Shown: positions 3,453 through 20,311, counted from the stretch's first letter. The stretch: DNA of 64,000 nucleotides from Acidobacteriota bacterium (GCA_018268955.1 JAFDVO010000004.1:124001-188000); one strand, 5' to 3'. Program-made: numbers and translations. The notes: a model not told the origin generated them from the letters alone.

Positions 3453-4643
3453 CTAGCGGCTGGTCGACGTCGGCCAGACCACGCCCATCTCCTTGCGCGG
3501 CACCGCACCGATCCCCTTGGCGACGAACTTCTGCACGCGCCGCCCCTGGTAGGTCTCGGTTGTGTAGAGGTTCCCCTTCGAGTCGATCGCGATGCTGTGG
3601 ATCGAGTAGAACTGGCCCGGGTAGTGCCCCCCCTCGCCGAAGTTGTAGACCTCCTGCAGCGACTGGCGGTCGATGATGCGAATCTTCGAGTTCCGCCCGT
3701 CGGACATGAAGATGTACTTCTGCTGCGGGTCCTTCGAGAACGCCACGTCCCACACCGAGCCGTCACCCAGCGAGTCCTTGGCGTACTGCTGTTCCTTGAC
3801 GAACTTCCCGTCCTTCGTGAACACCTGCATGCGGTCGTTCACGCGGTCGCAGACGTAGACGAACCCGTCGACCGACAGGTCGGCGCAGTGCACCGGGTTG
3901 CGGAACTGCTGCGCGAGCGGCGCATTCGGGTTGTAGCGGCCGAGGTCCTTGTCGTCCGGCTTGTTGCCGTATGCGCCCCAGAACCGCTTGAACTGCCCAG
4001 TGTCGGCATCCATGACGACAACGCGCTTGTTGCCGTAGCCGTCGGCGACGTAGACCTCGTTCGCCTTCTCGTCGACGAACACCTTGGCCACCTGGAAGAA
4101 GTGGTCGGTGGCGTTGCTGTCGGCCTTCACGCCCTTCTTGCCGAACTGCTTCACGAACTTCCCGTCGCGCGTGAACTTCAGCACGAGGCCGTCGGTGCCG
4201 CCGTTGCCGCCGATCCAGACAAAACCCTTCGTGTCGGCATAGATGCCGTGATTCGAGTCAGGCCAGTCGTACCCCTGGCCCGGGCCGCCCCAGGCGTGGA
4301 CGACGTTGCCGGCCTGATCGAATTCGATGATGGGCGGCGCCTTCTTGCAGCACTCGCCGGTGGGTGGGTTCTGGTCCGCCGCGGCTTCGACCGGATCCAG
4401 CGAGTCGTTGCGATGGATGATCCAGACATGGTCCTGGTTGTCCACCCAGACACCGATGGTCTGGCCGATGTACCAACCATTCGGCAGCGGCTTGGGCCAC
4501 ATCGGATCCACTTCGAACCTGGGCGCGGTGATACCGGCCCCGCCCGCCTGCGCCGATGCCCGCTTCTCGAACACGCTCTGGCCGATGCCGAGCGCGGCGA
4601 GGAGGGCGATGAATCCTGCCCCGATGAATACGTTCCGCTTCAT
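3453..4643 (-). CDS. PAL-like NHL six-bladed beta-propeller protein (paralog 1)
   Basis: A 396-residue secreted protein with a signal peptide (about 1-32) and NHL-type propeller blades. It resembles the lyase half (PAL) of peptidylglycine alpha-amidating monooxygenase, which cleaves peptidyl-alpha-hydroxyglycine on a zinc site. Residues matching PAL's site by position in the motifs are His132 (SNHGI), His252 (NPVHCAD) and His349 (SIHSIAID) as candidate Zn ligands, Tyr203 (VADGYGNKR), Arg78 (IIHR) and Arg267 (CDRVNDR). A vicinal Cys98-Cys99 pair (ECC) is shared with both neighbouring paralogs. It is one of three tandem propeller genes, with copper monooxygenase-like genes 4 kb away. Actual lyase activity is unproven; an alternative is a generic secreted NHL oxidoreductase or lactonase. 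Confidence 0.8.
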   Translation of the reverse strand: MKRNVFIGAGFIALLAALGIGQSVFEKRASAQAGGAGITAPRFEVDPMWPKPLPNGWYIGQTIGVWVDNQDHVWIIHRNDSLDPVEAAADQNPPTGECCKKAPPIIEFDQAGNVVHAWGGPGQGYDWPDSNHGIYADTKGFVWIGGNGGTDGLVLKFTRDGKFVKQFGKKGVKADSNATDHFFQVAKVFVDEKANEVYVADGYGNKRVVVMDADTGQFKRFWGAYGNKPDDKDLGRYNPNAPLAQQFRNPVHCADLSVDGFVYVCDRVNDRMQVFTKDGKFVKEQQYAKDSLGDGSVWDVAFSKDPQQKYIFMSDGRNSKIRIIDRQSLQEVYNFGEGGHYPGQFYSIHSIAIDSKGNLYTTETYQGRRVQKFVAKGIGAVPRKEMGVVWPTSTSR

Positions 4644-4668
4644 CTCGTCTTCTCCTCTCGACGCCCGC

Positions 4669-5886
4669 TCAGCGCCCGGCTACGAACTTCTGCACGCGCT
4701 TGCCGTGGTGCTGCTCGCCCGTGTAGACGTTGCCCTTCGAGTCGACCGCAATGCTGCCCACCGCCAGGAAGCGCCCGGGCTGCCGGCCGCCCTGCCCGAT
4801 GGAGCCCACCTCGTTCAGCGACGCGCGGTCGAGAATCCGCACCTTCTTGTTCTGGCCGTCGGCCACGAACAGGTAGCGCTGCTGCGCGTCGTTCGAGAAC
4901 GCCACATCCCACACGGATCCGAACGACGACACCGCGCCGAACTGCCCGCCGACGACGGCGCCGCCCGTGTTCTTGGCGATGATCGCTTCCTTGACGAACT
5001 TGCCGTCCTTGCCGAAGACCTGGATGCGGTTGCTGGTGCGATCGCAGACGTAGACGTTGCCGTCCTTTGCGATGTCGATGCAGGTGACGTCCCGGAACTG
5101 GCGCGCGGGCGCGGCATTCGGGTCGTACGCGCCAGGGTCGGCACCGGGCTTCTCGCCGTAGGCGCCCCACGCGCGCTTGAATTTCCCGCTCTCACTGTCG
5201 AACACCGCGATGCGGCGGTTGCCGGTGTCCGCGACGTAGACCTCGTTCGCCGCGGTATCCACCGCCACGGCCGCCGGCCTGCTCAGCGCGTCGTCTCCGG
5301 TGCTCTGGCCCGGCTTGCCGATCTGGAGGAGGAACTGGCCGGACTTCGAGAACTTCAGGACGTGCGCGTCACCTGGTGCGGCCGCGCCGGCGCCCGCACC
5401 GGCGCCACGCCCGCCGGCGCCCGCTGGAGGCGTGACCAGCCCGGCCGCCGTGATCCACACGTTTCCCTTGCCGTCGACCGCGAGGCTGCCGGGAGACTGC
5501 GGCCACGTGTAGCCCTGGCCGGGACCGCCGAAGCTCGAGACGACCTTGCCGGTCGCATCCAGTTCGAGGACGAACGGCGCGGCGGTGCAGCAGACGCTCG
5601 ACGTCGGAGGCGTGAGCATCATGCCCTTCTCGTTCGCCTCGAGGGAGTCGCCGCCCCGGTGAACGACCCAGACATGATCCTGCGCGTCGACAGCAACGCC
5701 GGTGATGGACCCGAACACCCAGTGGTTCGGCAGTGGCTGCGGCCAGAGCGGCTCGACCCGGTACGCGGGCGCGGCGGCCGCTCCCGTGCGCGCCTGCGCA
5801 TGAACCACGGGCCCCGCCAGCGCAACGGCACACGCGCCCGCGGCCAACGCGCCGGCGGCAATGCCTACTTTCGAGAATGGCTTCAT
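4669..5886 (-). CDS. PAL-like NHL beta-propeller, metal-site-degenerate paralog 2
   Basis: A 405-residue secreted propeller homologous to its two neighbours. The start at 5886 is chosen because a strong ribosome-binding site (GGAGGAGGG) lies just upstream and a signal peptide (MKPFSKVG... to HAQA) follows directly; longer frames run into the upstream terminator. The fold is kept (Cys99-Cys100, CDRTSNR, FGGPGQGYTWP). All three candidate zinc histidines of the paralogs are replaced: NHGI becomes PGSL, PVHCAD becomes VTCID, and IHSIAID becomes VGSIAVD. The DGYGN tyrosine is lost by a deletion (DTGN). A Gly/Ala-rich insert sits at about residues 155-171. It probably lacks the lyase-like chemistry and may be a binding or scaffold paralog. 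Confidence 0.78.
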   Translation of the reverse strand: MKPFSKVGIAAGALAAGACAVALAGPVVHAQARTGAAAAPAYRVEPLWPQPLPNHWVFGSITGVAVDAQDHVWVVHRGGDSLEANEKGMMLTPPTSSVCCTAAPFVLELDATGKVVSSFGGPGQGYTWPQSPGSLAVDGKGNVWITAAGLVTPPAGAGGRGAGAGAGAAAPGDAHVLKFSKSGQFLLQIGKPGQSTGDDALSRPAAVAVDTAANEVYVADTGNRRIAVFDSESGKFKRAWGAYGEKPGADPGAYDPNAAPARQFRDVTCIDIAKDGNVYVCDRTSNRIQVFGKDGKFVKEAIIAKNTGGAVVGGQFGAVSSFGSVWDVAFSNDAQQRYLFVADGQNKKVRILDRASLNEVGSIGQGGRQPGRFLAVGSIAVDSKGNVYTGEQHHGKRVQKFVAGR

Positions 5887-5917
5887 ATCCCTCCTCCGTA
5901 GGCGGGGGAGTATATAT

Positions 5918-5958
5918 AAAAAAGGCGCCGAACCCTTTCGGATTCGGCGCCTTTTTTT
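5918..5958. terminator. Bidirectional Rho-independent terminator
   Basis: A perfect 9-bp stem (5924-5932 with 5943-5951, GGCGCCGAA) with a 10-nt loop is flanked by a T-run at 5952-5958 and an A-run at 5918-5923. It can therefore terminate on both strands. On the minus strand it separates the 6059-7258 propeller gene from the 4669-5886 gene, which must have its own promoter. Confidence 0.85.
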
Positions 5959-6036
5959 GGCTCTGGGCTCTGGGCTGCTGGCTCTCGGCATGGACGGCTT
6001 CACGACTGAGGCCGACCACGCCCGAAGGCTGCAGTC

Positions 6037-6054
6037 GGGAGCCCGAAGGCTCCC
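6037..6054 (-). other. Stem-loop just after the 6059-7258 stop codon
   Basis: GGGAGCC and GGCTCCC form a 7-bp stem with a CGAA tetraloop, starting 5 bp beyond the stop codon of the minus-strand propeller gene. There is no T-run, so it is more likely an mRNA 3'-end stabiliser or a repeat hairpin than a terminator. Confidence 0.45.
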
Positions 6055-6058
6055 GCGC

Positions 6059-7258
6059 TTAGCGGGTCGTCGGGAAGACGATGCCCTGGTCCTGCTTCGT
6101 CACAGGGCGCAGGCCCTTGTAGACGAACTTCTGGACGCGCTTGCCCTCGTAGGTTTCCGTCGTGTAGATGTTGCCCTTCGAGTCGGTCGCGATGGAGTGC
6201 ACCGCGTACCAGCCGCCCGGCTGACGGCTGCCGTCGCCGAAGCTGGTGAGGATCTCGAGCGACTGACGATCCATCACGTACACCTTCTCGTTCGAACCAT
6301 CGGCGAGGTAGATGTACTTCTGCTGCGGATCCTTCGAGAAGGCGATATCCCACACCGCACCGTCGCCGAGGGTCTTCGGCTTGATGCGCTGTTCCTTCAC
6401 GAACTTGCCGTCCTTCTGGAAGACCTGGATGCGGTCGTTCACGCGGTCGCAGACGTAGACGAAGCCGTCGTTGGAGGGCTCGGCGCAGTGGACCGGGTTG
6501 CGGAACTGGCGGATGAGCGGAGCGTCCGGGTTGTAGCGGCCCATGTTGGTGTCGTCCGGCTTCTCGCCGTACGCGCCCCAGTACCGCTTGATCTTGCCGG
6601 TGTCGAGGTCGATGACCGCCACGCGCTTGTTGCCGTAGCCGTCAGCCACGTAGCCCTCGTTCGCCTTCTCGTCGAGCGAGACCTTCGCGACCTTGTTGAA
6701 GGCCCAGGTGTCGTTGCTGCCGGCGTTCGCGTACGCGAAGCCGAACTGCTTGATGAACTTGCCGTCCTGGGTGAACTTCAGGATGTGGCCGTCGTTGCCG
6801 CCGTTGCCACCAATGTAGACGTTGCCCTTCGAATCGGGCGTGATGCCGTGGTTCGACTCAGGCCACTCGTAGCCCTGGCCAGGGCCGCCCCAGCCCGCGA
6901 CGAAGTTGCCGGTCGGGCCGTCGAACACCATGACGGGCGGAGCCGCCACGCAGCATTCGGACATCGGGGGGTTCTGCGCCGCGTAGATCTCCTTGCGATC
7001 GAGCGTCGCCGCACCACGATGAATGATGTAGACGCGGTCCTTGTTGTCCACGCCCAGGCCGATGACGTTGCCGTACAGCCAGCCCTTGTTGAGCGGCTTC
7101 GGCCACATCGGGTCGACTTCGAAGTACGGCGCCTGCACGGCAGCCTTGCCCTGCGCGGCAGCAGCCTTTTCCATCATGCTCTGCGCCACGCCGAGCGTCG
7201 CGAGCGCGCCGACGAACGTCGCCCCCACGAACAGATTCTTCCTGCTCATTCCCCTCAT
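6059..7258 (-). CDS. PAL-like NHL six-bladed beta-propeller protein (paralog 3)
   Basis: A 399-residue secreted propeller. The start at 7258 is preceded by GGAGG at a 7-nt spacing; a second in-frame ATG (MSRKN) lies three codons in. The signal peptide spans about 1-36. The PAL-like site is complete: candidate zinc ligands His137 (SNHGI), His257 (NPVHCAE) and His354 (AVHSIATD), with Tyr208 (DGYGN), Arg81 and Arg272 (CDRVNDR), and the paired Cys102-Cys103. It is closer to the 3453-4643 paralog than to the degenerate one between them. Its transcript ends at the bidirectional terminator. The catalytic role in hydroxyglycine-type cleavage is inferred from motif matches only. Confidence 0.8.
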   Translation of the reverse strand: MRGMSRKNLFVGATFVGALATLGVAQSMMEKAAAAQGKAAVQAPYFEVDPMWPKPLNKGWLYGNVIGLGVDNKDRVYIIHRGAATLDRKEIYAAQNPPMSECCVAAPPVMVFDGPTGNFVAGWGGPGQGYEWPESNHGITPDSKGNVYIGGNGGNDGHILKFTQDGKFIKQFGFAYANAGSNDTWAFNKVAKVSLDEKANEGYVADGYGNKRVAVIDLDTGKIKRYWGAYGEKPDDTNMGRYNPDAPLIRQFRNPVHCAEPSNDGFVYVCDRVNDRIQVFQKDGKFVKEQRIKPKTLGDGAVWDIAFSKDPQQKYIYLADGSNEKVYVMDRQSLEILTSFGDGSRQPGGWYAVHSIATDSKGNIYTTETYEGKRVQKFVYKGLRPVTKQDQGIVFPTTR

Positions 7259-7373
7259 CCTTTAGCCTCCGGCTCTCCCCAAAGCTTCGCGGTGGAGGGC
7301 GTCAGTATACATAACCCGGCACAGCCTTGCGAACGGAATGCTATCCCACTATCCTTGAGGCCTTTAGGGACTC

Positions 7374-8705
7374 ATGATGCAGGGTTGGTACGGCTCGTGG
7401 CGCCGCTTCGCGGCCGCCGGTCTCCTCGCGATCGCCTGCGCCATCCCGGCGCTGCTCTCCGCGCACGAAATCCCGAACGACGTCACCATCCAGAGCTTCA
7501 TCAGGGCCGACGGCTCCGAACTGAAGCTGCTGGTGCGCGTGCCGCTCATCGCGATGCGCGACATGACGTGGCGCTTCAAGGGCCAGGACATCATCGACCT
7601 CGAGCGCTCGGCACAGGCGCTGCACGACGCCTCCACGCTCTGGGTCGGCGACGATGTGACGGTCTACGAGGACGGGCGGAAGCTCGGACCGCAGACCGTC
7701 GCGGCCGTGCGCGCCACGCCTGCGGAGGATCGATCGTTCGAGAACTACGACTCGGCGCTGGCGCTGCTCACCGCGCCCCAGACCGACGCGGATGTGACGG
7801 TGGCCACCGGCTACCTCGATCTCCTCTTTACCTATCCCATTCAGTCCGCGTCATCGCGCTTCTCGATAGAGCCGAAGTGGGGGCGCCTGGGCCTGCGGGC
7901 GGTCACCGTGATGCGCCTGATCCTCGGGGACGGCACCGTGCGCGCGTTCGAGGTCACGGGCAACCCCGGCGTGGTGGACCTGGATCCGCGCTGGATTCAG
8001 GCGGCGTGGCGGTTCGTGAAGCTCGGGTTCGAGCACATCCTCGACGGCACGGATCACCTGCTGTTCCTCTTCTGCCTGGTGATCCCCTTCCGCCGGTTCC
8101 GATCGCTCATCACGATCGTCACGGCGTTCACGGTCGCGCATTCCATCACGCTGATTGCGTCGGCCTACGACCTCGGCCCGGATGCGCTCTGGTTCCCCCC
8201 GCTGATCGAGATGCTCATCGCGACCTCGATCGTCTACATGGCGCTCGAGAACATCGTCGGTGCCAGCCTGCACCGGCGCTGGCTCATCACCTTCGGCTTC
8301 GGCCTGGTGCACGGCTTCGGCTTCTCGTTCGCCTTGAAACAGACGCTGCAGTTCGCCGGATCACACCTGCTGACGTCGCTGCTGTCGTTCAACGTCGGGG
8401 TCGAACTCGGGCAACTGCTGGTGCTGCTGCTCCTGCTGCCGGCGCTGGACTTCCTGTTCTCGCGCGTGGTGCAGGAGCGCATGGGCACGATCATCCTGTC
8501 CGCGCTGGTGGCCCACACCGGCTGGCACTGGATGACGGAGCGCTACGGCGTCTTCTCGCAGTATCCGGTCACGATGCCGGAGTTCACGCCGGCCTTCATT
8601 GCCGAACTGCTCCGGTACGCGATGGCGCTCGTGGCGCTCGCCGGCATCCTCTGGGCTATCTCGGCCTTCACCAAATCGCGCGACGACGCCGAGGCGACGT
8701 CCTGA
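7374..8705 (+). CDS. HupE/UreJ-family membrane protein
   Basis: A 443-residue protein with a signal peptide (cleavage near SAHE), an extracytoplasmic region to about residue 210, and a polytopic C-terminal half of about seven helices. The membrane part carries the HupE/UreJ signature: HILDGTDHLLFLF, VTAFTVAHSITL, HGFGFSFAL and FNVGVELGQL. Classical HupE/UreJ proteins are linked to nickel or cobalt supply; long forms with an N-terminal soluble domain are common in Acidobacteriota and are not known to be nickel transporters. No hydrogenase or urease genes are visible, so the substrate is open. Two ATGs are adjacent (7374 and 7377). The gene is divergent from the propeller genes and convergent with the copper oxygenase gene. 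Confidence 0.82.
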   Translation: MMQGWYGSWRRFAAAGLLAIACAIPALLSAHEIPNDVTIQSFIRADGSELKLLVRVPLIAMRDMTWRFKGQDIIDLERSAQALHDASTLWVGDDVTVYEDGRKLGPQTVAAVRATPAEDRSFENYDSALALLTAPQTDADVTVATGYLDLLFTYPIQSASSRFSIEPKWGRLGLRAVTVMRLILGDGTVRAFEVTGNPGVVDLDPRWIQAAWRFVKLGFEHILDGTDHLLFLFCLVIPFRRFRSLITIVTAFTVAHSITLIASAYDLGPDALWFPPLIEMLIATSIVYMALENIVGASLHRRWLITFGFGLVHGFGFSFALKQTLQFAGSHLLTSLLSFNVGVELGQLLVLLLLLPALDFLFSRVVQERMGTIILSALVAHTGWHWMTERYGVFSQYPVTMPEFTPAFIAELLRYAMALVALAGILWAISAFTKSRDDAEATS

Positions 8706-8710
8706 CGCCC

Positions 8711-8801
8711 AAGGCTTCGGGCTGCGGGCTGCGGGCTCTGGGGCCGTCGGCTCTGGGCCTGAAGCCGAGCACGCCGGGAGCCTGAAGCCGGGAGCCTGAA
8801 G
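8711..8801. repeat. Intergenic GGGCTCT / CCTGAAGCC-type repeats
   Basis: Imperfect short units (GGGCTGC, GGGCTCT, then GGGAGCCTGAAGCC copies) fill the gap between two convergent genes. The same word family occurs at 5960-6055, 30200-30310 and 48460-48475. Confidence 0.65.
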
Positions 8802-8805
8802 CCCC

Positions 8806-10869
8806 TTAGCGCGGCAATCTGAAGGCGAGCCGCTGACGGTAGCCGTCGCGGCGAGCGGCGATGGCTGATGCATCAGCGGGCTTCAATGCCAGCGCGGCAT
8901 TCGCGGTGTCGACGGCACGGTCGAAGTCGTCGTTCGCCGCCTGCGCCGCAGCCAGGACATCCAGCGCGCCGGCATCCTTTCTCATCGTCAGCGACACCGC
9001 CCGCTCGGCCAGCCTGATGGCGAGGCCCGGATCGCGCAGCGCGTCCAGCGGTGAGGCGGCCAGCAGCCACGCGAGGTCGACGAGCGGACCTGGCGAGTCG
9101 GGCGCCAATTCGACAGCCTTCTTCAGGTGCGCGATGGCGTCCGGCTGCTTGCCCAGCCTGAGCGACGCAATGCCCGCGTTGTAGTGCGCCTGCGCATTCG
9201 AGGGATCGAGACGAAGGGCCTCAGCGAGGTGCGTGAGCGCCTCCTGGGCCTTGCCGGTGCTGAGCAGGATGCTCGCAAGGTTGTTGTGCGCCTGCGGGTA
9301 GTCCTTGCGGATGGCCAGCGCGCGCTGGTACTCGAGGACGGCCGAGTCGTAGTCACCGGCTACCGTCAGCGCGGTCCCGAGGTTGAAGTGCGCGGGGGCC
9401 GACTCGGGCTCGAGGTGCGCGGCGGCCCGAAAATGCCTGACCGCGTCCTGCGGCTTCTTCAACTCGAGGTAGAGCGCGGCGAGCGTGGTGTGCAGCGGCG
9501 CACTGTCGGGTTCCGACTCGAGCCATCGCTCGTATCCGATGGTGTCCTCGGTCATCACCTTCGTGCCGAACTGATCGTTCAGGAGCGCGAGATCCCGATC
9601 GGTGCGCGTCAGCACCTGAATCCAGAGGTCGCCCATCTCGTCCGACGACCGCTGCCCCCAGTAGACCCGCCGCGGCGGCTGGTCCGGGTTGCGGGGATTC
9701 TCCGGTGAGTTGTCGTAGGTGTAGCGCATCTGGAGCCGCGTTCCCTTCGGCAGCCAGAACGGCGTGACGTAGCGATACACGTGCTGCCAGCGGAAGTCCC
9801 AGCGCCGGATGTGGATCAGCGGCCGCACGGATCCGTCAGGGAGGTTGGCGAAGCCGACGATCTCCTTCGCGCGGTAGTGCGCGTGCGGCTGCACCGCCTG
9901 CACCTCGACGTCCACCGGCGTGACGAAGGAGTCGGTGATGACGTACTCCTTCTCACCAGGCGGGATGTCGATGCTCTGTCGGCCGAGACGCAGCATCGCG
10001 GGCGTCCGCTCGGGCGGATCGCTGGTGAAGTAGAAGCCGACCGATGCCTGGACCGGCTCCTCCCGTCCGCTCGGCTGCATGTGCAGTTCCACGACGAGAT
10101 CGGTGTTCGGCTCGAGGCGCCACGCGAGGCCTTTCGGCAGGAGCGGCGGCACCTGGCCTGGCGTCCACCCGAGGAAATGCCCGTCCGGGTACACGGCGGA
10201 GTTTGCGATGAGCCCCGAGTAGCCCGGGCCCGGCTCGGCCTCGTCGAACTTCCTCGAGGCGTCGGTGTGGTCGATCCGGATGTTCGCGTGGTGCACGACG
10301 CGCGGGTTGCCCGGCTTGAACTCCATCCCGCGCACGTACTTCATCACGCTGACCGGCAGCTTGATGACGAACACGCGGAAGCTGTCTGTACCGTCGGCTT
10401 GAAGTGTGTAAGGGGGCGTGGTGACGATCAGGTCCGGCTTCCCGAGTTGCCAGCCCTCCGTCCACTCTGGCGGAACCGGGGTGAGGGCGCGGTCCCCCTC
10501 GGGGGCGCCGTCCGCCTGCCAGCGCTGGAAGAGGTCGACCTCCTCAGGCGTGAGCCGGGGCTGGCCAACGAACTCCCCACCGTAGTCACCGTCCGCCTGC
10601 CATGGAGGCATGACTCCCGACCGGGTCAGCAGCGCCATTTGCGTCGCGTGGCCGCGCGCACTCGCATACGTCAGCAGGCTGAATGGGGCTGCCCCACCAG
10701 GCCGATGGCAGACCCCGCACTTCGCATGGACGATCGGTGCGATGTCCTTCGCGAACGTCACTGGGGACTGCGCAAGGGACGGCGTCACGCGCAGCATGCA
10801 CGCGAGCAGGGCCAGCAGGATGGCTGCGTGCTTCGTCCTCGCCGAGCCGCCGCGGTGCACGGCAGTCAT
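8806..10869 (-). CDS. Cytochrome c - copper type II (PHM-like) monooxygenase - TPR fusion protein (paralog A)
   Basis: A 687-residue exported protein with a signal peptide (about 1-34). A c-type heme domain follows, with Cys51-x2-Cys54-His55 and a candidate axial Met in VMPPW. The two-lobed region at about 140-425 has a ligand pattern matching PHM/dopamine-hydroxylase copper sites: His193-His194 (VVHHAN), His263 (ELHMQP), His329-x-His331 (PHAHY) and Met412 (DEMGDLW). TPR repeats run from about 440 to 660. In PHM the two coppers hydroxylate a C-H bond with reductant and O2; here the fused heme could deliver electrons (inference). The ATG overlaps the stop of the redoxin gene (ATGA), implying coupled translation. 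Substrate unknown. Confidence 0.85.
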   Translation of the reverse strand: MTAVHRGGSARTKHAAILLALLACMLRVTPSLAQSPVTFAKDIAPIVHAKCGVCHRPGGAAPFSLLTYASARGHATQMALLTRSGVMPPWQADGDYGGEFVGQPRLTPEEVDLFQRWQADGAPEGDRALTPVPPEWTEGWQLGKPDLIVTTPPYTLQADGTDSFRVFVIKLPVSVMKYVRGMEFKPGNPRVVHHANIRIDHTDASRKFDEAEPGPGYSGLIANSAVYPDGHFLGWTPGQVPPLLPKGLAWRLEPNTDLVVELHMQPSGREEPVQASVGFYFTSDPPERTPAMLRLGRQSIDIPPGEKEYVITDSFVTPVDVEVQAVQPHAHYRAKEIVGFANLPDGSVRPLIHIRRWDFRWQHVYRYVTPFWLPKGTRLQMRYTYDNSPENPRNPDQPPRRVYWGQRSSDEMGDLWIQVLTRTDRDLALLNDQFGTKVMTEDTIGYERWLESEPDSAPLHTTLAALYLELKKPQDAVRHFRAAAHLEPESAPAHFNLGTALTVAGDYDSAVLEYQRALAIRKDYPQAHNNLASILLSTGKAQEALTHLAEALRLDPSNAQAHYNAGIASLRLGKQPDAIAHLKKAVELAPDSPGPLVDLAWLLAASPLDALRDPGLAIRLAERAVSLTMRKDAGALDVLAAAQAANDDFDRAVDTANAALALKPADASAIAARRDGYRQRLAFRLPR

Positions 10870-11462
10870 TGCACGAAGTCCGCGATGAAGCAGCCAACGG
10901 CCGGAGCCGAGTCGGCCGCGGGCTTCCCTCCCGCGAGCACCGCGGTGAGCGCCTCGAAGAGATCGCGGCGGGTGGCAGCGGGACGCTCCACGCCGAGGCT
11001 CACGAATCGATCGTCGATGCGGCCGTGGTACACGAGTGTTCGCTGCCGATCGAACAGCGCCGCTTCCGGCGTGATGGTCACCCTGGCCAGCTTCACCAGG
11101 TCGTGGTGCGGATCGAGCAGCGCATGCACCGGATACGAATATGCCTTCAGGTGCTCGCGTACGGCGTCAGCCGAATCGGCGGGGTTGGGGTAGACAAGCC
11201 AGAACGCGACGTTCTTCGGCGCAAACGCCGAGTGCAGGCGCTGCACTTCAGGCGCGTAGCGGTTCGAGACCGGACAATCGATGCTGGCGAAGAGGAACAG
11301 GATGGCGGCGCTGTTCTCCGCCGCCAGGAACGGGTCGACCACCCGACCATCCACGTCGCGCAGCGGCACGCTCGGACCCGCCGCCCGCAGCGACACATTC
11401 CCGCGCACGCCGAGCAGCACGAGGCCCGCGCACACCAGCACGAACGCGGCTCTTCGAGACAT
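10866..11462 (-). CDS. Redoxin (AhpC/TSA-like thioredoxin-fold) protein
   Basis: A 198-residue exported thioredoxin-fold protein. The start at 11462 (MSRRAAF) is chosen because it gives a clean signal peptide; longer frames run into intergenic repeats. A single peroxidatic-type cysteine sits in FASIDCPVSNRYAPE, and a second cysteine lies near the end (AVGCFIADF). There is no CxxC. Similar redoxins occur beside cytochrome/copper-monooxygenase proteins in Acidobacteriota and Planctomycetota. The 4-nt overlap with the downstream copper-oxygenase gene suggests it reduces or protects that enzyme or helps deliver copper; this role is inference. Confidence 0.78.
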   Translation of the reverse strand: MSRRAAFVLVCAGLVLLGVRGNVSLRAAGPSVPLRDVDGRVVDPFLAAENSAAILFLFASIDCPVSNRYAPEVQRLHSAFAPKNVAFWLVYPNPADSADAVREHLKAYSYPVHALLDPHHDLVKLARVTITPEAALFDRQRTLVYHGRIDDRFVSLGVERPAATRRDLFEALTAVLAGGKPAADSAPAVGCFIADFVQ

Positions 11463-11529
11463 CAGCGCGATTGTAACTCCCCGCCGAACCGCTCTACCCA
11501 CCCATGTCCACAACGGCGCCCCAGCAGCA

Positions 11530-11698
11530 CAGAATGCAGGAATGCAGGAATGCAGGAATACAGGAATGCGGGGACGCAGGAACGCAAGAGCGCAGGAACC
11601 CAAACCGCTGACATGCATCAATGCCGAAGCGTTTGAGCGTCTTGGCGTTTACGCGTTTTTGCGTTTAGCGTTTTCGCGTTTTCGCATTTCGCGTTTTA
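11530..11698. repeat. Intergenic GCAGGAAT and GCGTTT(T/A) short repeats
   Basis: Two repeat types are stacked: tandem octamers GCAGGAAT around 11531-11570, then GCGTTTT/GCGTTTA words around 11630-11698. The second type reaches the last codons of the next minus-strand gene. The octamer recurs at 42.29 kb and the GCGTTT word at 23.82 and 37.95 kb. Confidence 0.7.
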
Positions 11699-13924
11699 CC
11701 GCTCCCACCCGCCGCCCTGCACGTCCGCGTCGCCGCGAGTGGCCGATCGGTACACGTCGAGCCGCTGGCGGATCTCGGCAGCGAGGCGGTCGTTCTTCAC
11801 GGCGAGGGCACGTTGGAGCGCGAGCTGGGCCGTGCGAGCGGCGAGCTCGATGCGCCCGGCGGCTGCATAGGCCGCGGCCAGCACGTCGAGCGCGGCTGGG
11901 TTCGACTGCCGCTCGGCCCCGCTGGTGCGTTCCGCAATGCGGGTCGCCTCGCGCGCGTCGAGCACCTCGGCGTTCGTGGCCAGGACCCAGGCGAGGTCCA
12001 GGGCGAACACCACGCTCTCAGGTCGCAGTTGCAGCGCACGACGCCAGGCCCGTACTGCCTCGCGTGCCTGCCCGCCCGCGATGAACGCGCGACCGAGGTT
12101 GTAGAGCGCGTCGGGGTGATCCGGCCGCGTCCGCAGCGCAGCCTGGAACTCGGCGAGCGCACCCGCACGGTCGCCCTGGGCGAGACGCACGCGTCCGAGG
12201 TTGTTGTGCGCCCCCACGTGAGCCGACCGGGACGCGAGCGCCGCCCGGTAGTGTGCCTCGGCGTCGGCCGACCGTCCGACGAGCTCCAGCGCGATGCCAA
12301 GGTTGTTGTGCGCTTCGGCGTAGTCCGGCCGCAGCGCGATCGCGCGCTCGAACCGTGCAATCGCCTCGTCCACGCGCTGCTGTCCCATGGCGACGACCCC
12401 GAGGTTGTAGTGCCCCATCGGGAGCGACGGGTCCGCCTGCACGGCACGCTCGAACTGCACGACCGCCTCCGCTGCCCGACCCACCTGCACGTAGGCCACC
12501 CCCAGCGCGATCCGCGTGGCTGCGTCGGCGGGTTGGTCCGCCAGCCGCTTCTCTTCGCCGGCAATGTCGGCGTCGATGTTCTTGCGCGTCACCATGGCCC
12601 TGAGCGTGCCGGCGTCCGTATCGCGCACGGGGACGACCTGCAGGAGCAGCTCGCCCATCTCATCGCTCGTCTCTGAACCGAAGCGCACGCGGCGCGGCGG
12701 CGCCGACGGGTTGTGTGGATTGCGCGCGGAGTTGTCGTACCGGTAGCGCATCTCGATCGTCGTGCCGCGTCGGAGCAGCACCGGTTCGGTCCACGCATAC
12801 TCGTCCTGCCAGTTGAAGTTCCACTCCGGGATCCTGAGGAGCGTCCGCACGCCGCCGGTGGGAAGCGTCGCCTCCACCTGCATGCTCGACGCGAGGTAGT
12901 GCGCGTGAGGCGAGATGCTGAACGCGCGCACGTCCACCGGGAGCGTCAGGCGGTCCACGACCTCGTAAGCGGCGTCTCCCGCCGGAATGTCAATCGTCTT
13001 GGACCCGAGGCGCAGCACGATGGGGATCCTCTCCGGTGGCGCATCCGTGAAGTACAGGCCGATCGAGGGCTGTACGCCTTCTGCACGTCCGGTCGGCTTC
13101 AGGTGAAGCTGCACAACGAGGTCGGTCCCGGGCTCCAGTGACCATGGAAAGCGTTCGGGGGTCACGCGCTTGCCAGGCGCCCAGCCCAGGAAGTGCCCTT
13201 CGGGAAACCGCGCACCCGGTACGTCCATCCCGCCAAAACCCGGTCCCGGCTCGCGCTCGTCGAGTCGACGCACGTCGCCGCTGTCATCGAGCAGCATGCG
13301 TGCGTGATGCACCAGGCGCGCATTGCCCGCCCGGAACTCGAGGGCACGCACGAAGCGCCGGTCCTCGAGAGGAATGCGAAGGACGAAGTTCCGAAAGACA
13401 TCGGGCCCGTCGGCCGGCACCTCGAACGGCTCCGGGAGGCTGACGACGAGGTCGGGCGTTCCGAGCTGCCAGCCCGCGCTGAACGGCGGGGTCGGACGCG
13501 CATCACCACTGTCCCCTTCCAGCAGTCCGTCATCCACCCAGCGGGTGAGCGTCTGGATCTCCTCCGGCAGCAGCCGCCTGTCGCCTTCGAACTCGTCCCG
13601 CTCACCGTCGGGCGGCCACGGCGGCATCACGTGGGTGGAAACCGCCGTCGCGATCAGCCGCGCGCGCTGTCGGGCGTCCGCATACGTCAGCAGGCCGAAC
13701 GGGGCCGCGCCGCCGGGCCGGTGGCAGGTCGCACACTTGTCGAAGAGGATGGGAGCAACGTCGCGATGGAAGGTGGTCGGCGCCGCCGATCGGACGGGCG
13801 CCTGCGCTGACACTCCGCGTGCGGCGCAGACGACGAGCGCCACGCCAACGCACGTCGCGATGGCGATCGCACGGGCCCGCGTCGATGTGCTGGTTGCCTG
13901 GGAATGGACCGTCGAACGCACCAC
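11696..13924 (-). CDS. Cytochrome c - copper type II (PHM-like) monooxygenase - TPR fusion protein (paralog B)
   Basis: A 742-residue exported protein with a GTG start and signal peptide (about 1-41). The heme site is Cys64-x2-Cys67-His68 with VMPPW. The copper-ligand pattern is His206-His207 (LVHHAR), His274 (QLHLKP), His340-x-His342 (PHAHY) and Met423 (DEMGEL). TPR units fill about 435-700 and are more numerous than in the other two copies. The upstream gene on the same strand encodes paralog C, 68 bp away, so the two may be co-transcribed. All catalytic-type residues are kept, so a functional monooxygenase is plausible. Confidence 0.83.
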   Translation of the reverse strand: MVRSTVHSQATSTSTRARAIAIATCVGVALVVCAARGVSAQAPVRSAAPTTFHRDVAPILFDKCATCHRPGGAAPFGLLTYADARQRARLIATAVSTHVMPPWPPDGERDEFEGDRRLLPEEIQTLTRWVDDGLLEGDSGDARPTPPFSAGWQLGTPDLVVSLPEPFEVPADGPDVFRNFVLRIPLEDRRFVRALEFRAGNARLVHHARMLLDDSGDVRRLDEREPGPGFGGMDVPGARFPEGHFLGWAPGKRVTPERFPWSLEPGTDLVVQLHLKPTGRAEGVQPSIGLYFTDAPPERIPIVLRLGSKTIDIPAGDAAYEVVDRLTLPVDVRAFSISPHAHYLASSMQVEATLPTGGVRTLLRIPEWNFNWQDEYAWTEPVLLRRGTTIEMRYRYDNSARNPHNPSAPPRRVRFGSETSDEMGELLLQVVPVRDTDAGTLRAMVTRKNIDADIAGEEKRLADQPADAATRIALGVAYVQVGRAAEAVVQFERAVQADPSLPMGHYNLGVVAMGQQRVDEAIARFERAIALRPDYAEAHNNLGIALELVGRSADAEAHYRAALASRSAHVGAHNNLGRVRLAQGDRAGALAEFQAALRTRPDHPDALYNLGRAFIAGGQAREAVRAWRRALQLRPESVVFALDLAWVLATNAEVLDAREATRIAERTSGAERQSNPAALDVLAAAYAAAGRIELAARTAQLALQRALAVKNDRLAAEIRQRLDVYRSATRGDADVQGGGWER

Positions 13925-13992
13925 GCCGTTATCTGCCCGTGAAGCCCGTCACGTGGAGGAATACGACGCCGGGACGGCTGGCGTTTCGCGGC

Positions 13993-16032
13993 TCAGCGGA
14001 CGACGGGCGTGTGCTGCCGGTACAGCTGGAGGCGTTCGCGGATCTCGTTGGCGAGCAGCGCCTGCCCTGACGCGTCAGCCACCTGGGCACCGACCGTCGC
14101 CACCCTGATCGCGTTCTCGAACTCACCAAGGGCCGCATAGGCCGCCGCCACCGCATCGAAGGCCTGGGGGTCCGCGCCGCGACTGAGCTGGCGCGCGCGG
14201 TCGGCCAGTGCGATCGCCTGCCCTGGCCGACGCAGGGCGGGGTCAGCGGCCGTTGCACGGATCCACGCGAGTCCTGTGAGCGCAGCGACCGACTCCGGCT
14301 GAACGCGGAGCGCCTGCTCGAAGGCGTCCGCGGCGTCAGCGGGCCGTCCCTGAATCAGCAGCAGCCGTCCCAGGTTGCTGCGCGCCTCGGCATTCTCGGG
14401 CCGCAGTTCCACCGCCTTGCGGTAGTGCGCAGCCGCCTCGTCAAGGCGACCGGCCACGTGGAGCATCGCGCCAAGGTTGTTGTGGGCCTCGGCATGGTTC
14501 GGATCCAGCCGCACGGCCGCTTCGTATTCGCGTGTGGCTTCCGGATACTGCCGCAGCATCGAGAGCGCGATGCCGTAGTTGTAGTGCGTCGGGGCCGAAT
14601 CGCTGTTCAGCCTGAGCGATTCACGGAAGTGCGGAACCGCCTCCTGGGGACGTCCATCCTGCAGGTACAGCATCGCCACCGCATCGTGCCGCAGCGGGTT
14701 CTTCGGATCGCCCTGCAGCACCCGCGTGTAGGCCGCAATGTCCTCCCCGCGGGTCTTCTTCGCGATGTCGGCGGCCAGCAGGCCGGTATCCTCGACGCGC
14801 ACGGGCACCAGCTGCACCCAGAGGTCGCCCATCTCGTCCGTCGTGTTCTGGCCCCAGACGATCCGCTGCGGCGGCTGGAAGGGGTTGCGGGCGTTCGTCG
14901 CCGAGTTGTCGTACGTGAAGCGCATCCGGATGACGCTCCCCTTCGGCAGCAGCACCGGCGACGCGAAGCGGTAGACGTCCTGCCAGCGGAAGTCCCAGTC
15001 ACGGATCTCGATGAGCGGACGCGTCGTGCCGTCGGGCAGCTGTGCCTCGGCGAACATCTCGCGTCCGAGATTGTGCGCATGCGGCTGCAACCCCAGCACG
15101 CGCGCGTCCACTGGTAGCGTGTAGCTGTCGCGGATCTCGTAGGCCCGCTCGCCTGGCGCGATGTCGATCGTCTCGCTACCCATGCGCAGGCCGACGGGCG
15201 TCTGCACCGGCGGCGTGTCGGTGAAGAAGAAGCCGACGCTCACCCGGATCGGCTCGGGCTTGCCTGTCGGCTGCAGGTGCAACTGCACGATGAGATCGCT
15301 GCCCGGTTCGAGCCGCCACGGCATGCCCTCAGGTGAGGGCCGCGGCTGCTGCCCCGGCGTCCACCCGAGCAGGTACCCCGGCGGGTACGCGGCGTCCTGC
15401 ACCATGCCGCCCACGTAGCCAGGCTCCGGATCCGCAGCGTCGAGGCGACGCGAGGACCGGGTGTGGTCGACGCCTATGTTGGCGTGGTGGACACCACGCC
15501 CATTGCCCGCCCTGAACTCCATAGCGGTCACGTAGCGGGTGGCGGTGGTCGGAATGGGCAGGACGAACGTGCGGAAGAGGTCCGGGCCGTCAGGCCTGAG
15601 CGTGTACGCCTCGGGCATGGTGACCACGACATCCGGCACGCCGAGTTGCCAGCCGTCGGCGAACACCGGCATCGGCGGCAGGTCCTTCGGATCGCCCTCG
15701 GGCCCGCCCTGCGCGACCCAGTCCTGAATGACCTGGATCTGGGCGTCCGTCAACGAGCGGTCGTCAAGGAAGAGCCCGTGCTCGTTCACCGGTTTCCACG
15801 GCGGCATCACGCGACGCTTCGTCGCATCGGCGATCAGCGTCATGCGCTGACGTGCGTCTCGATAGGTCTGGAGCGGGAACGGTCCGATTTCACCGGGCCG
15901 ATGGCAGCCGGTGCAGTGCGCGAACACGATCGGTGCCACGTCACGCGCGTAGGTGACGGGGCCGGCCGCGTAAAGCGGCGACGCCACACCAAGCGCGACG
16001 AGCAGCACGCACAGCGCCCGGAACATGCTCAC
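13993..16032 (-). CDS. Cytochrome c - copper type II (PHM-like) monooxygenase - TPR fusion protein (paralog C)
   Basis: A 679-residue exported protein with a signal peptide (about 1-23). The GTG start at 16032 could instead be the ATG two codons later. The heme site is Cys40-x2-Cys43-His44 with VMPPW. Copper ligands by pattern are His182-His183 (GVHHAN), His252 (QLHLQP), His318-x-His320 (PHAHN) and Met401 (DEMGDLW). TPRs run from about 430 to 650. Its start is only 38 bp from the divergent glycosyltransferase gene at 16071, so a compact divergent promoter must lie in that gap. Confidence 0.83.
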   Translation of the reverse strand: MSMFRALCVLLVALGVASPLYAAGPVTYARDVAPIVFAHCTGCHRPGEIGPFPLQTYRDARQRMTLIADATKRRVMPPWKPVNEHGLFLDDRSLTDAQIQVIQDWVAQGGPEGDPKDLPPMPVFADGWQLGVPDVVVTMPEAYTLRPDGPDLFRTFVLPIPTTATRYVTAMEFRAGNGRGVHHANIGVDHTRSSRRLDAADPEPGYVGGMVQDAAYPPGYLLGWTPGQQPRPSPEGMPWRLEPGSDLIVQLHLQPTGKPEPIRVSVGFFFTDTPPVQTPVGLRMGSETIDIAPGERAYEIRDSYTLPVDARVLGLQPHAHNLGREMFAEAQLPDGTTRPLIEIRDWDFRWQDVYRFASPVLLPKGSVIRMRFTYDNSATNARNPFQPPQRIVWGQNTTDEMGDLWVQLVPVRVEDTGLLAADIAKKTRGEDIAAYTRVLQGDPKNPLRHDAVAMLYLQDGRPQEAVPHFRESLRLNSDSAPTHYNYGIALSMLRQYPEATREYEAAVRLDPNHAEAHNNLGAMLHVAGRLDEAAAHYRKAVELRPENAEARSNLGRLLLIQGRPADAADAFEQALRVQPESVAALTGLAWIRATAADPALRRPGQAIALADRARQLSRGADPQAFDAVAAAYAALGEFENAIRVATVGAQVADASGQALLANEIRERLQLYRQHTPVVR

Positions 16033-16070: not shown

Positions 16071-18323
16071 ATGACCCGGGCCGGCAGGACGCATTCACTT
16101 CCCAACAACGCCGCACCGCTCCTCGTGCGGGACGACAACGGTGTCCTCCGCTCGGTTGGGCTCATCTTCGCTGCCGCCCTGCTCGTCAGGCTGCTGCATG
16201 TCTGGCTGCTCAGCCGTTCGCCGTACTTCGACACGCTGCTGGGCGATGCTCGCGGATATGACGAATGGGCGCGCCGGCTCGCGGCGGGCGACTGGATCGG
16301 CACGGACGTCTTCTATCAGGCGCCGCTCTACCCCTACTTCCTCGGCGTCCTCTACAAGCTGTTCGGGCACAGCCTCTGGGCCGTGCGCGTCGTGCAGGCG
16401 CTCCTCGGCGCCGGCTCCTGTGCCCTGCTCGCGCTCGCGGGCCAGCGGTTCTTCTCGCGAACGGTCGGGTTGCTGGCGGGCTTCTCGCTCGCCTTCTACG
16501 CACCGGCGATCTTCTTCGATGCGCTGCTCCAGAAGTCGGTCCTCGACCTCTTCTTCCTGACGCTCTCGCTGTGGTGCATCGGCCGGCTCGTCGACAATCG
16601 GTCCGCGCGCGGCTCCTGGCTCGGCCTCGGGCTTGCGATGGGTGGCCTGAGCCTCACACGCGAGAACGCCCTGGTCTTCATCGCCGTGATCGTGATCTGG
16701 GCGCTGACGGCGACGAACGTGTCGCCGGGAAGGTCGGGAGGGCCAGGACCGGCAGGGGCCGATCGTTCTCGGGAGCAGCATTCACTCGTCGGCCTGGGCG
16801 CCTTCGTGCTCGGGCTCGCGCTCGTGCTCCTGCCGGTCGCCGTGCGGAACTACGCCGTCGGCGGCGGGTTCTACCTGACGACGTCGCAGTTCGGCCCGAA
16901 CTTCTACATCGGCAACAACCCGCAGGCGGACGGCACGTATGCCTCGCTGCGCTTCGGCCGTGGTGCGCCGGAGTACGAGCGGACCGACGCGACCGAACTG
17001 GCGGAGCATGCGCTCGGAAGGCAGCTGTCGCCAGCGGAGGTCTCCGGCTACTGGACCGATCAGGCGCTCACCTTCATCACGAAGCAGCCCGGTGCCTGGC
17101 TCACGCTGGTCGGCCGCAAGGTGCTGCTCCTCGTGAACCGGTCGGAAATGCTCGACACCGAAGCGCAGGAGAGCCATGCGGAATGGTCGTGGCCGCTGCG
17201 CATCGGCCGCTGGGTCGGCCACTTCGGCCTTCTCGTTCCACTTGCTGTCGTCGGCCTGATCGTCTCGTGGCCCGCGAGGCGACGCCTCAGCGTGCTCTAC
17301 CTGATGCTCACGGCATACGCGGCGAGCGTCGTCCTCTTCTACGTCTTCGCGCGTTACCGATTCCCGCTGGTTCCGCTGCTGCTCCTCTTCGCTGCGGCAG
17401 GAGTCGCGGCGCTCCCGGAGTGGATTCGAACGCACGCGGCCCGGCCACGGATCACCCTCGCCATCGTCGTGGTCGGCGCCGCGACGCTTGCCAACTGGCC
17501 GCTGCTCTCGCCGCCCCTGATGATGGCGATCACCGAGACGAACCTGGCCAGCGCGCTCCAGACCGAAGGCAAGGTCCAGCAGGCGGCCGAGCATTACGCG
17601 CGTGCCATCGAACTCCAGCCCGACTACGCGCCGGCGTATAACAACCTCGGCGTGCTCCAGCGCTCCATGGGCCGCGCGGACGATGCGATTGCGACCTATC
17701 GACGCGCGCTGTCGCTGAAGGGCAACTACCCGGACGCACACTACAACCTCGCCAACGCGCTGCTCGAGAAGGGGCAGCCTCAGGAAGCGGCGGAGCATTT
17801 CACGATCGCGCTCCGATCCATTCCCGACTCCGCAGGCGTCGCCAACAACCTCGGCGTCGCGCTGGCCGGGCAGAACCGTCAGCAGGACGCGCTCGCAGCG
17901 TTCAGGTCCGCCACAGCTGCCGAACCCCGCTCGGCCCTTGCCCACCGCAACCTGGCGGACGCCCTGTCAGCGGCCGGACATCTCGATGAGGCGTTCGCCG
18001 AGTACCGGACGGCGATGTCACTCGATCCGCAGGATCCGTCCGCCCCGTACAACCTTGGCGTCGCGCTGCTCGAGGCGCAGCGCATTCCGGACGCGATTGC
18101 CGCGCTGCGCACGGCGGTTCGGCTCGCGCCGCAGTCGGTGGACGCACACAACAACCTGGGCATCGCGCTGGGGTCGTCGGGCGATCTCGATGGGGCCATC
18201 GCTGAATTCCAGCGCGCACTGGCCATCGACAGCACGTCCGCCGAGGCTCGCCAGAACCTCGAGATGGCGCAGGCCGCGCGTGCGCAGGGCTCGCGTGCGC
18301 AGGGCGCGGGACGGCGGCCGTGA
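16071..18323 (+). CDS. GT39-type membrane glycosyltransferase with C-terminal TPR domain
   Basis: A 750-residue inner-membrane protein. Residues about 25-500 form roughly ten hydrophobic helices resembling the ArnT/PMT-type (GT-C) glycosyltransferases, with an acidic first periplasmic loop (GDARGYDEWA) as in their catalytic site and FARYRFPLVPLLLL near the end. Residues 510-740 are six or so TPR units (YNNLGVLQ, HYNLANALL, HNNLGIALG). GT-C enzymes transfer a sugar from a polyprenyl-phosphate donor. The stop overlaps the next start by 4 nt, so both proteins are probably made together. The acceptor (protein or lipid) is unknown. Confidence 0.8.
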   Translation: MTRAGRTHSLPNNAAPLLVRDDNGVLRSVGLIFAAALLVRLLHVWLLSRSPYFDTLLGDARGYDEWARRLAAGDWIGTDVFYQAPLYPYFLGVLYKLFGHSLWAVRVVQALLGAGSCALLALAGQRFFSRTVGLLAGFSLAFYAPAIFFDALLQKSVLDLFFLTLSLWCIGRLVDNRSARGSWLGLGLAMGGLSLTRENALVFIAVIVIWALTATNVSPGRSGGPGPAGADRSREQHSLVGLGAFVLGLALVLLPVAVRNYAVGGGFYLTTSQFGPNFYIGNNPQADGTYASLRFGRGAPEYERTDATELAEHALGRQLSPAEVSGYWTDQALTFITKQPGAWLTLVGRKVLLLVNRSEMLDTEAQESHAEWSWPLRIGRWVGHFGLLVPLAVVGLIVSWPARRRLSVLYLMLTAYAASVVLFYVFARYRFPLVPLLLLFAAAGVAALPEWIRTHAARPRITLAIVVVGAATLANWPLLSPPLMMAITETNLASALQTEGKVQQAAEHYARAIELQPDYAPAYNNLGVLQRSMGRADDAIATYRRALSLKGNYPDAHYNLANALLEKGQPQEAAEHFTIALRSIPDSAGVANNLGVALAGQNRQQDALAAFRSATAAEPRSALAHRNLADALSAAGHLDEAFAEYRTAMSLDPQDPSAPYNLGVALLEAQRIPDAIAALRTAVRLAPQSVDAHNNLGIALGSSGDLDGAIAEFQRALAIDSTSAEARQNLEMAQAARAQGSRAQGAGRRP

Positions 18324-20311
18324 CCGCGCGACGTGGTCGGCCGCCGCGATACCCGGAGCGTCGCGCAGATTCCCCAGATGCAAGCCGCGGAACCCGATCG
18401 CACTCCGCCTCGCCACCCTGGTGGCCTGTCGCCCTGGTCATCGCCCTGACCGCGGGGGCGTACGCGAATGCCCTCAACAACCCCTTCGTGTTCGACGATG
18501 CGAGCACGATCGTGGGGAACGGAACGATCCGCTCGATCGGTTCGGCCCTGATGGGCGGCCCGGTCCAGACCGCCACCGCGGGACGACCGCTCGTGAACCT
18601 CTCCTTCGCTCTCAACTATGCGCTCGGAGGCACCTCACCGGTCGGCTATCACGTGGTCAACCTCTCCATCCATGTCGCGTGTGCGCTCGTCCTCATCGGG
18701 GTGCTACAGCGCCTGTTCGCCGCACCCGCCTTCGCCACGTGGACGCAGGGTCGCGAGCGCGGCCTCGCATTGGTCGTCGCCGTGCTATGGGCGGTGCATC
18801 CGCTGAACAGCGAAGTCGTCAACTACGTCACGCAGCGGACCGAGTCGTCGATGGCGCTCGCCCTGCTGCTCACGCTCTACTGTGGGCTTCGGTGGGTCGG
18901 ATCCGGCAGCACGCGCTGGCAGGCAGGCGCTGTGGCGGCGTGCGCCGCCGGCATGGCCTGCAAGGAGACGATGGTGGTGGCGCCCCTGCTGATGCTGGCG
19001 ACCGACGCCCTCATTTCCGCAAGGTCGCCTGTTGACGTGCTGCGACAGCGCGGCCGCTTCTACGGCCTTCTTGCCGCCACGTGGCTGGTCCTGGCGCTGC
19101 TCGTCTTCGAGGGACCCCGCTGGCGCAGCGCCGGGTTTTCCAGCGGCGTGTCGCCGTGGACCTATCTGCTGAACCAACCGCGCATCATCGTGCACTACCT
19201 GCGCGTCGCGCTGCTGCCCTACGGGCTCGTGCTCGACTACGGCGAGCCAACCACGATGGCCCTCACTGCTGCCCTGGCACCTGGCCTCCTGGTCGCCGCG
19301 CTCATCGTCGCTACCGGGTGGGCGTGGGCCACGGCGCCCGCGTTGGGATTCCTGGGCACCTGGTTCTTCCTCACTCTCGCCCCAACGTCATCACTCTTGC
19401 CGATCGCCACCGAGGTCGGCGCGGAACGTCGCATGTACCTGCCACTCATCGCTCTCGTGTCCGCCCTCGTCCTGCTCGTCACGCGCGTCGTCGCCAACTC
19501 TCGCGGTCCGGCACAATCACGAGCGGTATGGCGCATCGTCGTTGGTGCGGCGTGTGCCCTGCTCATGGTGCTCACGGTGAACCGCAACCGCGAGTACTCG
19601 GACACGCTCACCTTGTGGAGAACGGTGGTCGACCGGTGGCCGCACAGCCGGGCACTCTATAACCTCGGGGTCGAGCTCAGCGCCGCGGGACAACGCGAGC
19701 AGGCGCTCGCGGCATACCAGCAGGCCGCGCCGGGCAGCACGGATGCGGAGTACGCGCTCGGCTACGAGGCGCAGGCGGACGGTCGTTACGACGAAGCGGC
19801 GGCGCACTACCTCGCGGTCATCGCGCGCCGCGCCGACGACGTCAATGTGCCGAGGGCGTATCACCAGCTTGGCCGCGTGCGTCTCGCGCAGAAGCGGTAC
19901 GACGAGGCGATTGCGGCATTCCGGGAGGTGCTCGCGCGAAAGCCGAACGACCCCGATGCGCTGGCCGGGATCGCGGATACGCTGCTGGCGCAGGAGAAGC
20001 CGGCCGACGCAGTGGCCGCTTACCGTGCGTACCTGGCCGTGAGGCCGAACGCGACCGACGCGATGATGAACATGGGGATCGCGCTCGTGAAGCTCGATCG
20101 GGACGCTGAGGCTCGCGACGTCTTCGCCTCCATCGTCCAGCACGAGCCCCAGAATGTCGCCGCGCACGTGAACCTCGCCTATGCGCTGGCCAACACCGGC
20201 CGGTTCGGCGACTCGGTTCGGGAGTTCCGTCGCGCGCTCGAACTCGAGCAGGACCCGCAGGGCCGCCGCGAGATCGAAGCCGCGATTGCGGAGCTGCTCG
20301 GAAACCACTGA
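18320..20311 (+). CDS. TMTC-like membrane protein with TPR repeats (putative O-mannosyltransferase-type)
   Basis: A 663-residue polytopic protein starting at GTG, overlapping the upstream gene by 4 nt (GTGA). The membrane half (about 33-415) begins NPFVFDD and contains RPLVNLSFALNYALGG and YHVVNLSIHVACALV, a pattern shared with eukaryotic TMTC proteins and bacterial GT-C enzymes. Residues about 430-655 are TPRs. TMTC proteins in animals O-mannosylate cadherins; activity here is only inferred from the shared architecture. A strong hairpin terminator lies about 115 bp downstream. Confidence 0.75.
   Translation: MTARRGRPPRYPERRADSPDASRGTRSHSASPPWWPVALVIALTAGAYANALNNPFVFDDASTIVGNGTIRSIGSALMGGPVQTATAGRPLVNLSFALNYALGGTSPVGYHVVNLSIHVACALVLIGVLQRLFAAPAFATWTQGRERGLALVVAVLWAVHPLNSEVVNYVTQRTESSMALALLLTLYCGLRWVGSGSTRWQAGAVAACAAGMACKETMVVAPLLMLATDALISARSPVDVLRQRGRFYGLLAATWLVLALLVFEGPRWRSAGFSSGVSPWTYLLNQPRIIVHYLRVALLPYGLVLDYGEPTTMALTAALAPGLLVAALIVATGWAWATAPALGFLGTWFFLTLAPTSSLLPIATEVGAERRMYLPLIALVSALVLLVTRVVANSRGPAQSRAVWRIVVGAACALLMVLTVNRNREYSDTLTLWRTVVDRWPHSRALYNLGVELSAAGQREQALAAYQQAAPGSTDAEYALGYEAQADGRYDEAAAHYLAVIARRADDVNVPRAYHQLGRVRLAQKRYDEAIAAFREVLARKPNDPDALAGIADTLLAQEKPADAVAAYRAYLAVRPNATDAMMNMGIALVKLDRDAEARDVFASIVQHEPQNVAAHVNLAYALANTGRFGDSVREFRRALELEQDPQGRREIEAAIAELLGNH

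Follow-up and report, generated by a model that had tools for sequence, protein, structure and literature searches.

The soil-type acidobacterium studied here carries, adjoining one another, secreted relatives of both halves of the animal peptide-amidating enzyme, the copper hydroxylase PHM and the zinc lyase PAL. We hold the homology of both halves to be near certain, the hydroxylase half being homologous to PHM and dopamine β-hydroxylase (DBH). Each PHM-like protein of the locus is a fusion of a cytochrome c, a PHM/DBM-type copper core, and TPR repeats, an architecture that an earlier note on this DNA had missed. We read these proteins as self-wired, heme-fed copper hydroxylases that act, at least partly, alongside PAL-type lyases, their substrates being small, non-peptide, or varied.

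The window, by which we mean the whole stretch analyzed, comprises 64,000 nucleotides of Acidobacteriota bacterium (GCA_018268955.1 JAFDVO010000004.1:124001-188000), and the feature of interest spans positions 3453 to 16032. The six open reading frames that the earlier note had placed there, three PHM-like proteins and three propellers, are borne out, all on the minus strand, and an N-terminal hydrophobic segment consistent with export can be read from the sequence of all six. The features, by position in the window, are as follows.

978 to 3227, minus strand: outer-membrane-type protein with CBM9/DUF5916; in G016 and G059 the propellers are followed by a relative
3453 to 4643, minus strand: PAL-like propeller 3; all six PAL catalytic residues present
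4669 to 6003, minus strand: PAL-like propeller 2, degenerate; three zinc histidines and the tyrosine lost, both arginines kept
6059 to 7258, minus strand: PAL-like propeller 1; R81, H137, Y208, H257, R272, and H354 correspond to PAL R533, H585, Y654, H690, R706, and H786
7374 to 8705, plus strand: HupE/UreJ_2 metal permease, between the PHM-like and propeller groups and divergent from the propellers
8806 to 10869, minus strand: PHM-like protein 1, 687 aa; architecture as in PHM-like protein 3; structure predicted, pLDDT 81
9634 to 9636, minus strand: M412 of PHM-like protein 1, predicted CuM ligand in SSDEMGDLW; rat M314
9877 to 9885, minus strand: H329-x-H331 of PHM-like protein 1, predicted CuM ligands; rat H242 and H244; residue 327 is Gln versus rat Arg240
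10081 to 10083, minus strand: H263 of PHM-like protein 1, predicted third CuH ligand; rat H172
10288 to 10293, minus strand: H193 and H194 of PHM-like protein 1, predicted CuH ligand pair, equivalent to rat H107 and H108
10705 to 10719, minus strand: CxxCH of PHM-like protein 1, the heme-binding motif (C51, C54, H55), with M87 of VMPPW as the candidate axial ligand
10866 to 11621, minus strand: AhpC/TSA-type redoxin; it shares 4 bases with the start of PHM-like protein 1, an overlap also found in L041
11696 to 13924, minus strand: PHM-like protein 2, 742 aa; architecture as in PHM-like protein 3
13993 to 16032, minus strand: PHM-like protein 3, 679 aa; putative signal peptide, then a cytochrome c site, a PHM/DBM-type copper core, and TPR
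16071 to 20311, plus strand: two glycosyltransferase-TPR type proteins, divergent from the TPR-type PHM genes; the first matches PMT_2

Relatives of the two glycosyltransferase-TPR proteins stand at the equivalent place in four other loci (L041, L050, L054, and L066).

PHM-like proteins are fused to a cytochrome c

The three PHM-like proteins of the window can be aligned over their first 440 residues, in which a CxxCH and a later MPPW are followed by HH, H, HxH, and M. All three carry the complete set of six copper ligands (H193, H194, H263, H329, H331, and M412 in protein 1 numbering), as the earlier note had recognized; their counterparts in rat PHM are H107, H108, and H172 at CuH and H242, H244, and M314 at CuM (PMC6123673). 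A profile built from nine diverse cores of the same genome retrieved human DBH as its sole meaningful PDB match (E 0.002), in an alignment that pairs HH, H, and HxH with their counterparts. This diversity was needed to reach DBH: a profile of three PHM-like sequences returned chance matches only, and a single-sequence PDB search with a full-length protein was swamped by TPR matches. Foldseek matched the AlphaFold model of PHM-like protein 1 to rat PHM (3mll, E 9.6e-11, TMt 0.62; 1phm, E 2.8e-10); among the matches listed there were many further rat PHM entries, and the rest concerned the TPR part. VIA-align with the full-length model gave TPR chains alone among the matches listed and is therefore uninformative on the core.

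Domain libraries recognize the tail far more readily than the core. Pfam finds the C-terminal TPR repeats and leaves Cu2_monoox_C and Cytochrome_CBB3 below threshold; the former matches six of the nine cores (best E 5e-4), with the window proteins below the cut-off or unmatched, and the latter reaches E 0.02-0.03 in two of the three window proteins, also below the cut-off. An NCBIfam scan of the PHM-like proteins returned TPR-type matches only, none for the core, and the cytochrome segment of PHM-like protein 1 was modelled with low confidence. It is the shared motifs, the DBH profile match, and the rat PHM fold match that together establish the cytochrome c-PHM/DBM-TPR fusion. From the predicted fold and the conservation of the ligands, we infer that these residues would converge on metal sites.

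The genome as a whole encodes 19 cytochrome c-PHM proteins, scattered over many contigs, most of them about 450-500 aa long and without TPR. The CxxCH and distal Met (C51, C54, H55, and M87) are invariant in all 19, and 18 have both the heme site and every copper ligand, as do all 20 PHM-like proteins in the 19 context loci that we inspected. The remaining paralogue (C44:279560-280570, in L020) keeps the CxxCH and Met and has lost all six copper ligands; it is possibly a heme-only pseudo-enzyme. The family is unevenly distributed in the order: of 40 genomes, 26 have no match at E 1e-50, and the others have up to 18. Among plasmids there was one distant, unannotated PHM-like match, in Nonomuraea, and among viral contigs no relative was found; a contig search with a single-protein query yielded nine loci.

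Two further observations concern this family. In G018 (C35:347255-350257), a single open frame of 1389 aa apparently encodes two cytochrome c-PHM modules. Next to cytochrome c-PHM genes without TPR (L055, L058, L061, L062, and L066) stands a predicted exported protein of ~300 aa with a motif near QPVFDGW, of which we saw six copies; the two that were scanned had no Pfam or NCBIfam match.

The Arg240 position and the substrate

The sequence of rat PHM in the PDB reads RVHTH, with arginine two residues before H242, and the bacterial proteins read QPHAH, among other variants, at the same place. We take Arg240 of PHM to be the residue that binds the carboxylate group of a glycine-extended substrate. 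In the ligand-keeping copies (18 paralogues from the genome itself and 20 context-locus proteins, two sets that overlap) this position is Gln, Ser, Thr, His, Met, Glu, Tyr, or Trp, and in none is it Arg; DBH likewise has Gln two residues before HxH. On these grounds the family is not PHM in the strict sense, and because the position is never Arg, peptides, which the earlier note had entertained as substrates, are not favored.

A true bacterial peptide amidation, in which glycine-extended secreted peptides would be hydroxylated and then cleaved to amides, would accord with the pair of folds and with catalytic residues that match those of animal PAM, both PAL arginines included. We nevertheless judge it very unlikely, given the replacement of Arg240 in every ligand-keeping copy examined and the presence of up to 19 PHM-like paralogues in a single genome.

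PAL-like propellers, intact and catalytically empty

The propeller profile matches rat PAL (E 7.5e-13) over a single stretch of 230 residues, and TRIM-type NHL proteins match it too. For the model of propeller 1 (pLDDT 85), the best Foldseek match is PAL itself (3fvz, E 1.8e-18). VIA-align, however, scores Drosophila Thin at Z 32.2 and PAL at 31.8, a tie that makes the fold alone indecisive and leaves the decision to the catalytic residues. We take H585, H690, and H786 of PAL to be the zinc ligands and Y654, R533, and R706 to have catalytic roles. All six are kept in propellers 1 and 3, just as the earlier note had proposed that two of the three propellers keep PAL-like positions, and the complete set recurs in 14 of 18 aligned proteins and in 21 of the 25 propellers of the 19 context loci. 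The other four aligned propellers have lost the three histidines and the tyrosine together and kept both arginines. The position of rat PAL Asp787, which we assume to be a structural calcium site, is Ser in 18 of 18 aligned rows, and for this reason we name the proteins PAL-like and do not file them as PAL.

Propeller 2 shows that same joint loss. It falls into a single clade (support 100/100) with the middle propellers of L041, of G016, and of L049, a close relative, and the dN/dS of the dead propeller (0.13, versus 0.10-0.17 for its intact neighbors) indicates purifying selection. A catalytically empty propeller has accordingly been retained, perhaps as a partner subunit.

Could all of the propellers be non-catalytic sensors or scaffolds, their resemblance to PAL being merely that of the NHL fold? 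Such a reading could draw on the equal VIA-align scores of PAL and of NHL proteins without known lyase activity, on a middle propeller that is under purifying selection without zinc ligands, and on the serine at the animal calcium-site aspartate. The three histidines and the tyrosine, however, are kept or lost jointly, as expected for a metal active site, and we consider this explanation most improbable.

Two contigs filed as Acidimicrobiia (L047) and Bifidobacterium breve (L049) carry window-like propeller clusters, and L049 resembles a contig of G043; both probably represent mislabelled or contaminated metagenome-assembled genomes.

Linkage to PHM-like genes and to HupE

By tests that ignore phylogeny and contig breaks and that include the window itself, 9 of 74 PAL clusters in 40 genomes lie within 5 kb of a PHM cluster, against 1.33 expected by random placement (p about 1e-5); 20 PAL clusters in 18 genomes have HupE within 2 kb, against 0.35 expected; HupE occurs within 5 kb of 9 PHM clusters, where 1.11 would be expected; and 13 genomes have both families, 1 has PHM only, 10 have PAL only, and 16 have neither (Fisher p 9e-4). 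Within the family, by a test of the same kind, a close PAL is present in 19 of the 19 genomes with a close TPR-PHM and in 4 of the 8 without (p 0.004). The earlier note had named co-occurrence as a check on the pairing: it is biased in the expected direction, and a result in which the two families never co-occur was not found. HupE, to which that note had also drawn attention, is the most constant neighbor of PAL-like genes, steadier than PHM. Most PHM-like copies have no lyase nearby, since only 9 of the 108 PHM clusters in the 40 genomes are near PAL.

The order of genes in the window recurs in another genus: L041 has glycosyltransferase-TPR, PHM, a redoxin overlapping PHM, HupE, PAL, dead PAL, and PAL. 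G016 shows PHM, redoxin, and PHM, then HupE, dead PAL, and PAL, and G060 has part of the arrangement. In G043, of the same genus as the window, the PHM group stops at a contig edge and the PAL group is on another contig. In one distant family, PHM, DUF2911, and PAL of G038 (L059) stand in an operon-like row, separated by about 67 bases each; the DUF2911 protein is identified there through a relative in L057. In the same family, G008 twice has PAL and PHM as immediate neighbors. Loci in which PHM is directly beside PAL without HupE occur in family f8 (L055, L056, and L059). In good assemblies from the window's own family (G044, G056, and G059), however, PHM and PAL are unlinked.

PAL-like genes also occur on plasmids without annotated PHM nearby, in Methylobacterium (50% identity), Skermanella (with HupE), Bradyrhizobium, and Priestia, some of them amid small-molecule catabolic genes, so the PAL-like enzyme evidently has an independent life. 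DUF1592, DUF1552, ankyrin, and PQQ quinoprotein genes recur in islands. DUF1552 (HXXSHH) proteins number at least 23-39 per genome in G008, G028, G038, G018, and G033, and some stand beside DUF1592-type cytochromes, ankyrins, and PHM-like genes.

These data bear on a rival account in which the two families are independent: exported metalloenzymes would cluster in catabolic islands and share a HupE metal supply, the PAL-like enzyme working with HupE and the PHM-like enzyme alone. The association of HupE with PAL is far stronger than that of PHM with PAL, PHM too lies near HupE more often than expected, Skermanella combines a PAL-like gene and HupE with no annotated PHM, the PAL-like genes of Methylobacterium and Bradyrhizobium sit amid transport and catabolic genes, and the islands are recurrent. 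Independence does not, however, readily accommodate the near absence of PHM-only genomes (1 of 14) or the direct PHM-PAL neighbors of f8, which lack HupE. We regard it as a serious contender whose probability falls short of even.

What stands of the hydroxylate-then-cleave pathway suggested by the earlier note is that both homologues are real, that their co-location exceeds random placement, that their co-occurrence is biased, and that the arrangement is syntenic in L041. The pathway reading is weakened because 10 of 23 propeller genomes have PAL without PHM, because HupE is the strongest partner, and because pairs in the same family are unlinked. That the PHM-like and PAL-like enzymes act in sequence is, in our estimate, evenly balanced.

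A model for a proposed pathway

Our reading of heme-fed hydroxylases working at least partly with PAL-type lyases can be drawn as a model for exported enzymes encoded by the locus. The PHM-like protein would be a copper monooxygenase with a built-in N-terminal cytochrome c domain, the most likely source of electrons for its coppers in lieu of the ascorbate that the animal enzymes use, and its TPR tail would serve in docking. It would hydroxylate the carbon next to nitrogen or oxygen on small substrates, and propellers 1 and 3, as putative PAL-type zinc lyases, would most likely break the hydroxylated product, which would be hemiaminal- or hemiacetal-like. HupE would import the metal, with the redoxin assisting in metal loading or cysteine handling for the PHM gene that it overlaps.

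Relation to known systems and significance

To our knowledge, nearly all known cases of PHM, DBH, and PAL chemistry are eukaryotic. The animal PAM enzyme (rat 1phm/3mll and 3fvz) shares with the proteins described here the PHM fold with HH, H, HxH, and M and the PAL fold with its six catalytic residues. The system of the window differs in being bacterial, in the fusion of the PHM part to cytochrome c and TPR, in the absence of Arg240, in the replacement of Asp787 by Ser, and in its extra dead propeller. DBH (4zel) has the copper ligands in register and the same Gln before HxH, whereas its DOMON domain contrasts with the cytochrome c and TPR of the window proteins. Some other bacterial PAL-like propellers are 26-27% identical to propeller 1 and have no PHM or HupE annotated nearby. 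In planarians, PHM and PAL are separate genes (PMC5461114).

A chemical parallel exists in enzymes unrelated to either family. MdgH/MdgL demethylate methylguanidine in bacteria by the stepwise removal of an N-alkyl group, a hydroxylase acting before a lyase (PMC12508155), a two-step dealkylation to which we liken the proposed pathway. MdgH/MdgL, however, consists of an Fe/2-oxoglutarate enzyme and a lyase that, according to its authors, has no sequence homology to PAL (PMC12508155). The same 2025 paper on bacterial stepwise dealkylation states that no similar lyase is known except the PAL of peptide-hormone amidation (PMC12508155). Our search of the open-licence literature turned up no account of cytochrome c-PHM fusions in bacteria, an absence that is weak evidence. 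Neither fold is new. What the searchable literature does not seem to describe is the joining of cytochrome c, PHM, and TPR in one protein, the expansion of this fusion, or its association with PAL-type and dead propellers.

At its broadest, and as a tentative proposal to which we give somewhat less than even weight, a large heme-fused, ascorbate-free PHM-type family would act outside the cytoplasm with PAL-type lyases and HupE in the dealkylation of small N- or O-substituted molecules, with the conserved dead propeller as a partner subunit, and would be a bacterial counterpart, perhaps an ancestor, of animal amidation. With its 19 cytochrome c-PHM fusions, of which some adjoin PAL-type propellers, this genome makes the origin of the amidation enzymes testable. 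The same genome makes it possible to test whether heme replaces ascorbate as the electron source of a PHM-type copper enzyme, and it is a possible source of bacterial enzymes for C-H hydroxylation and amide release.
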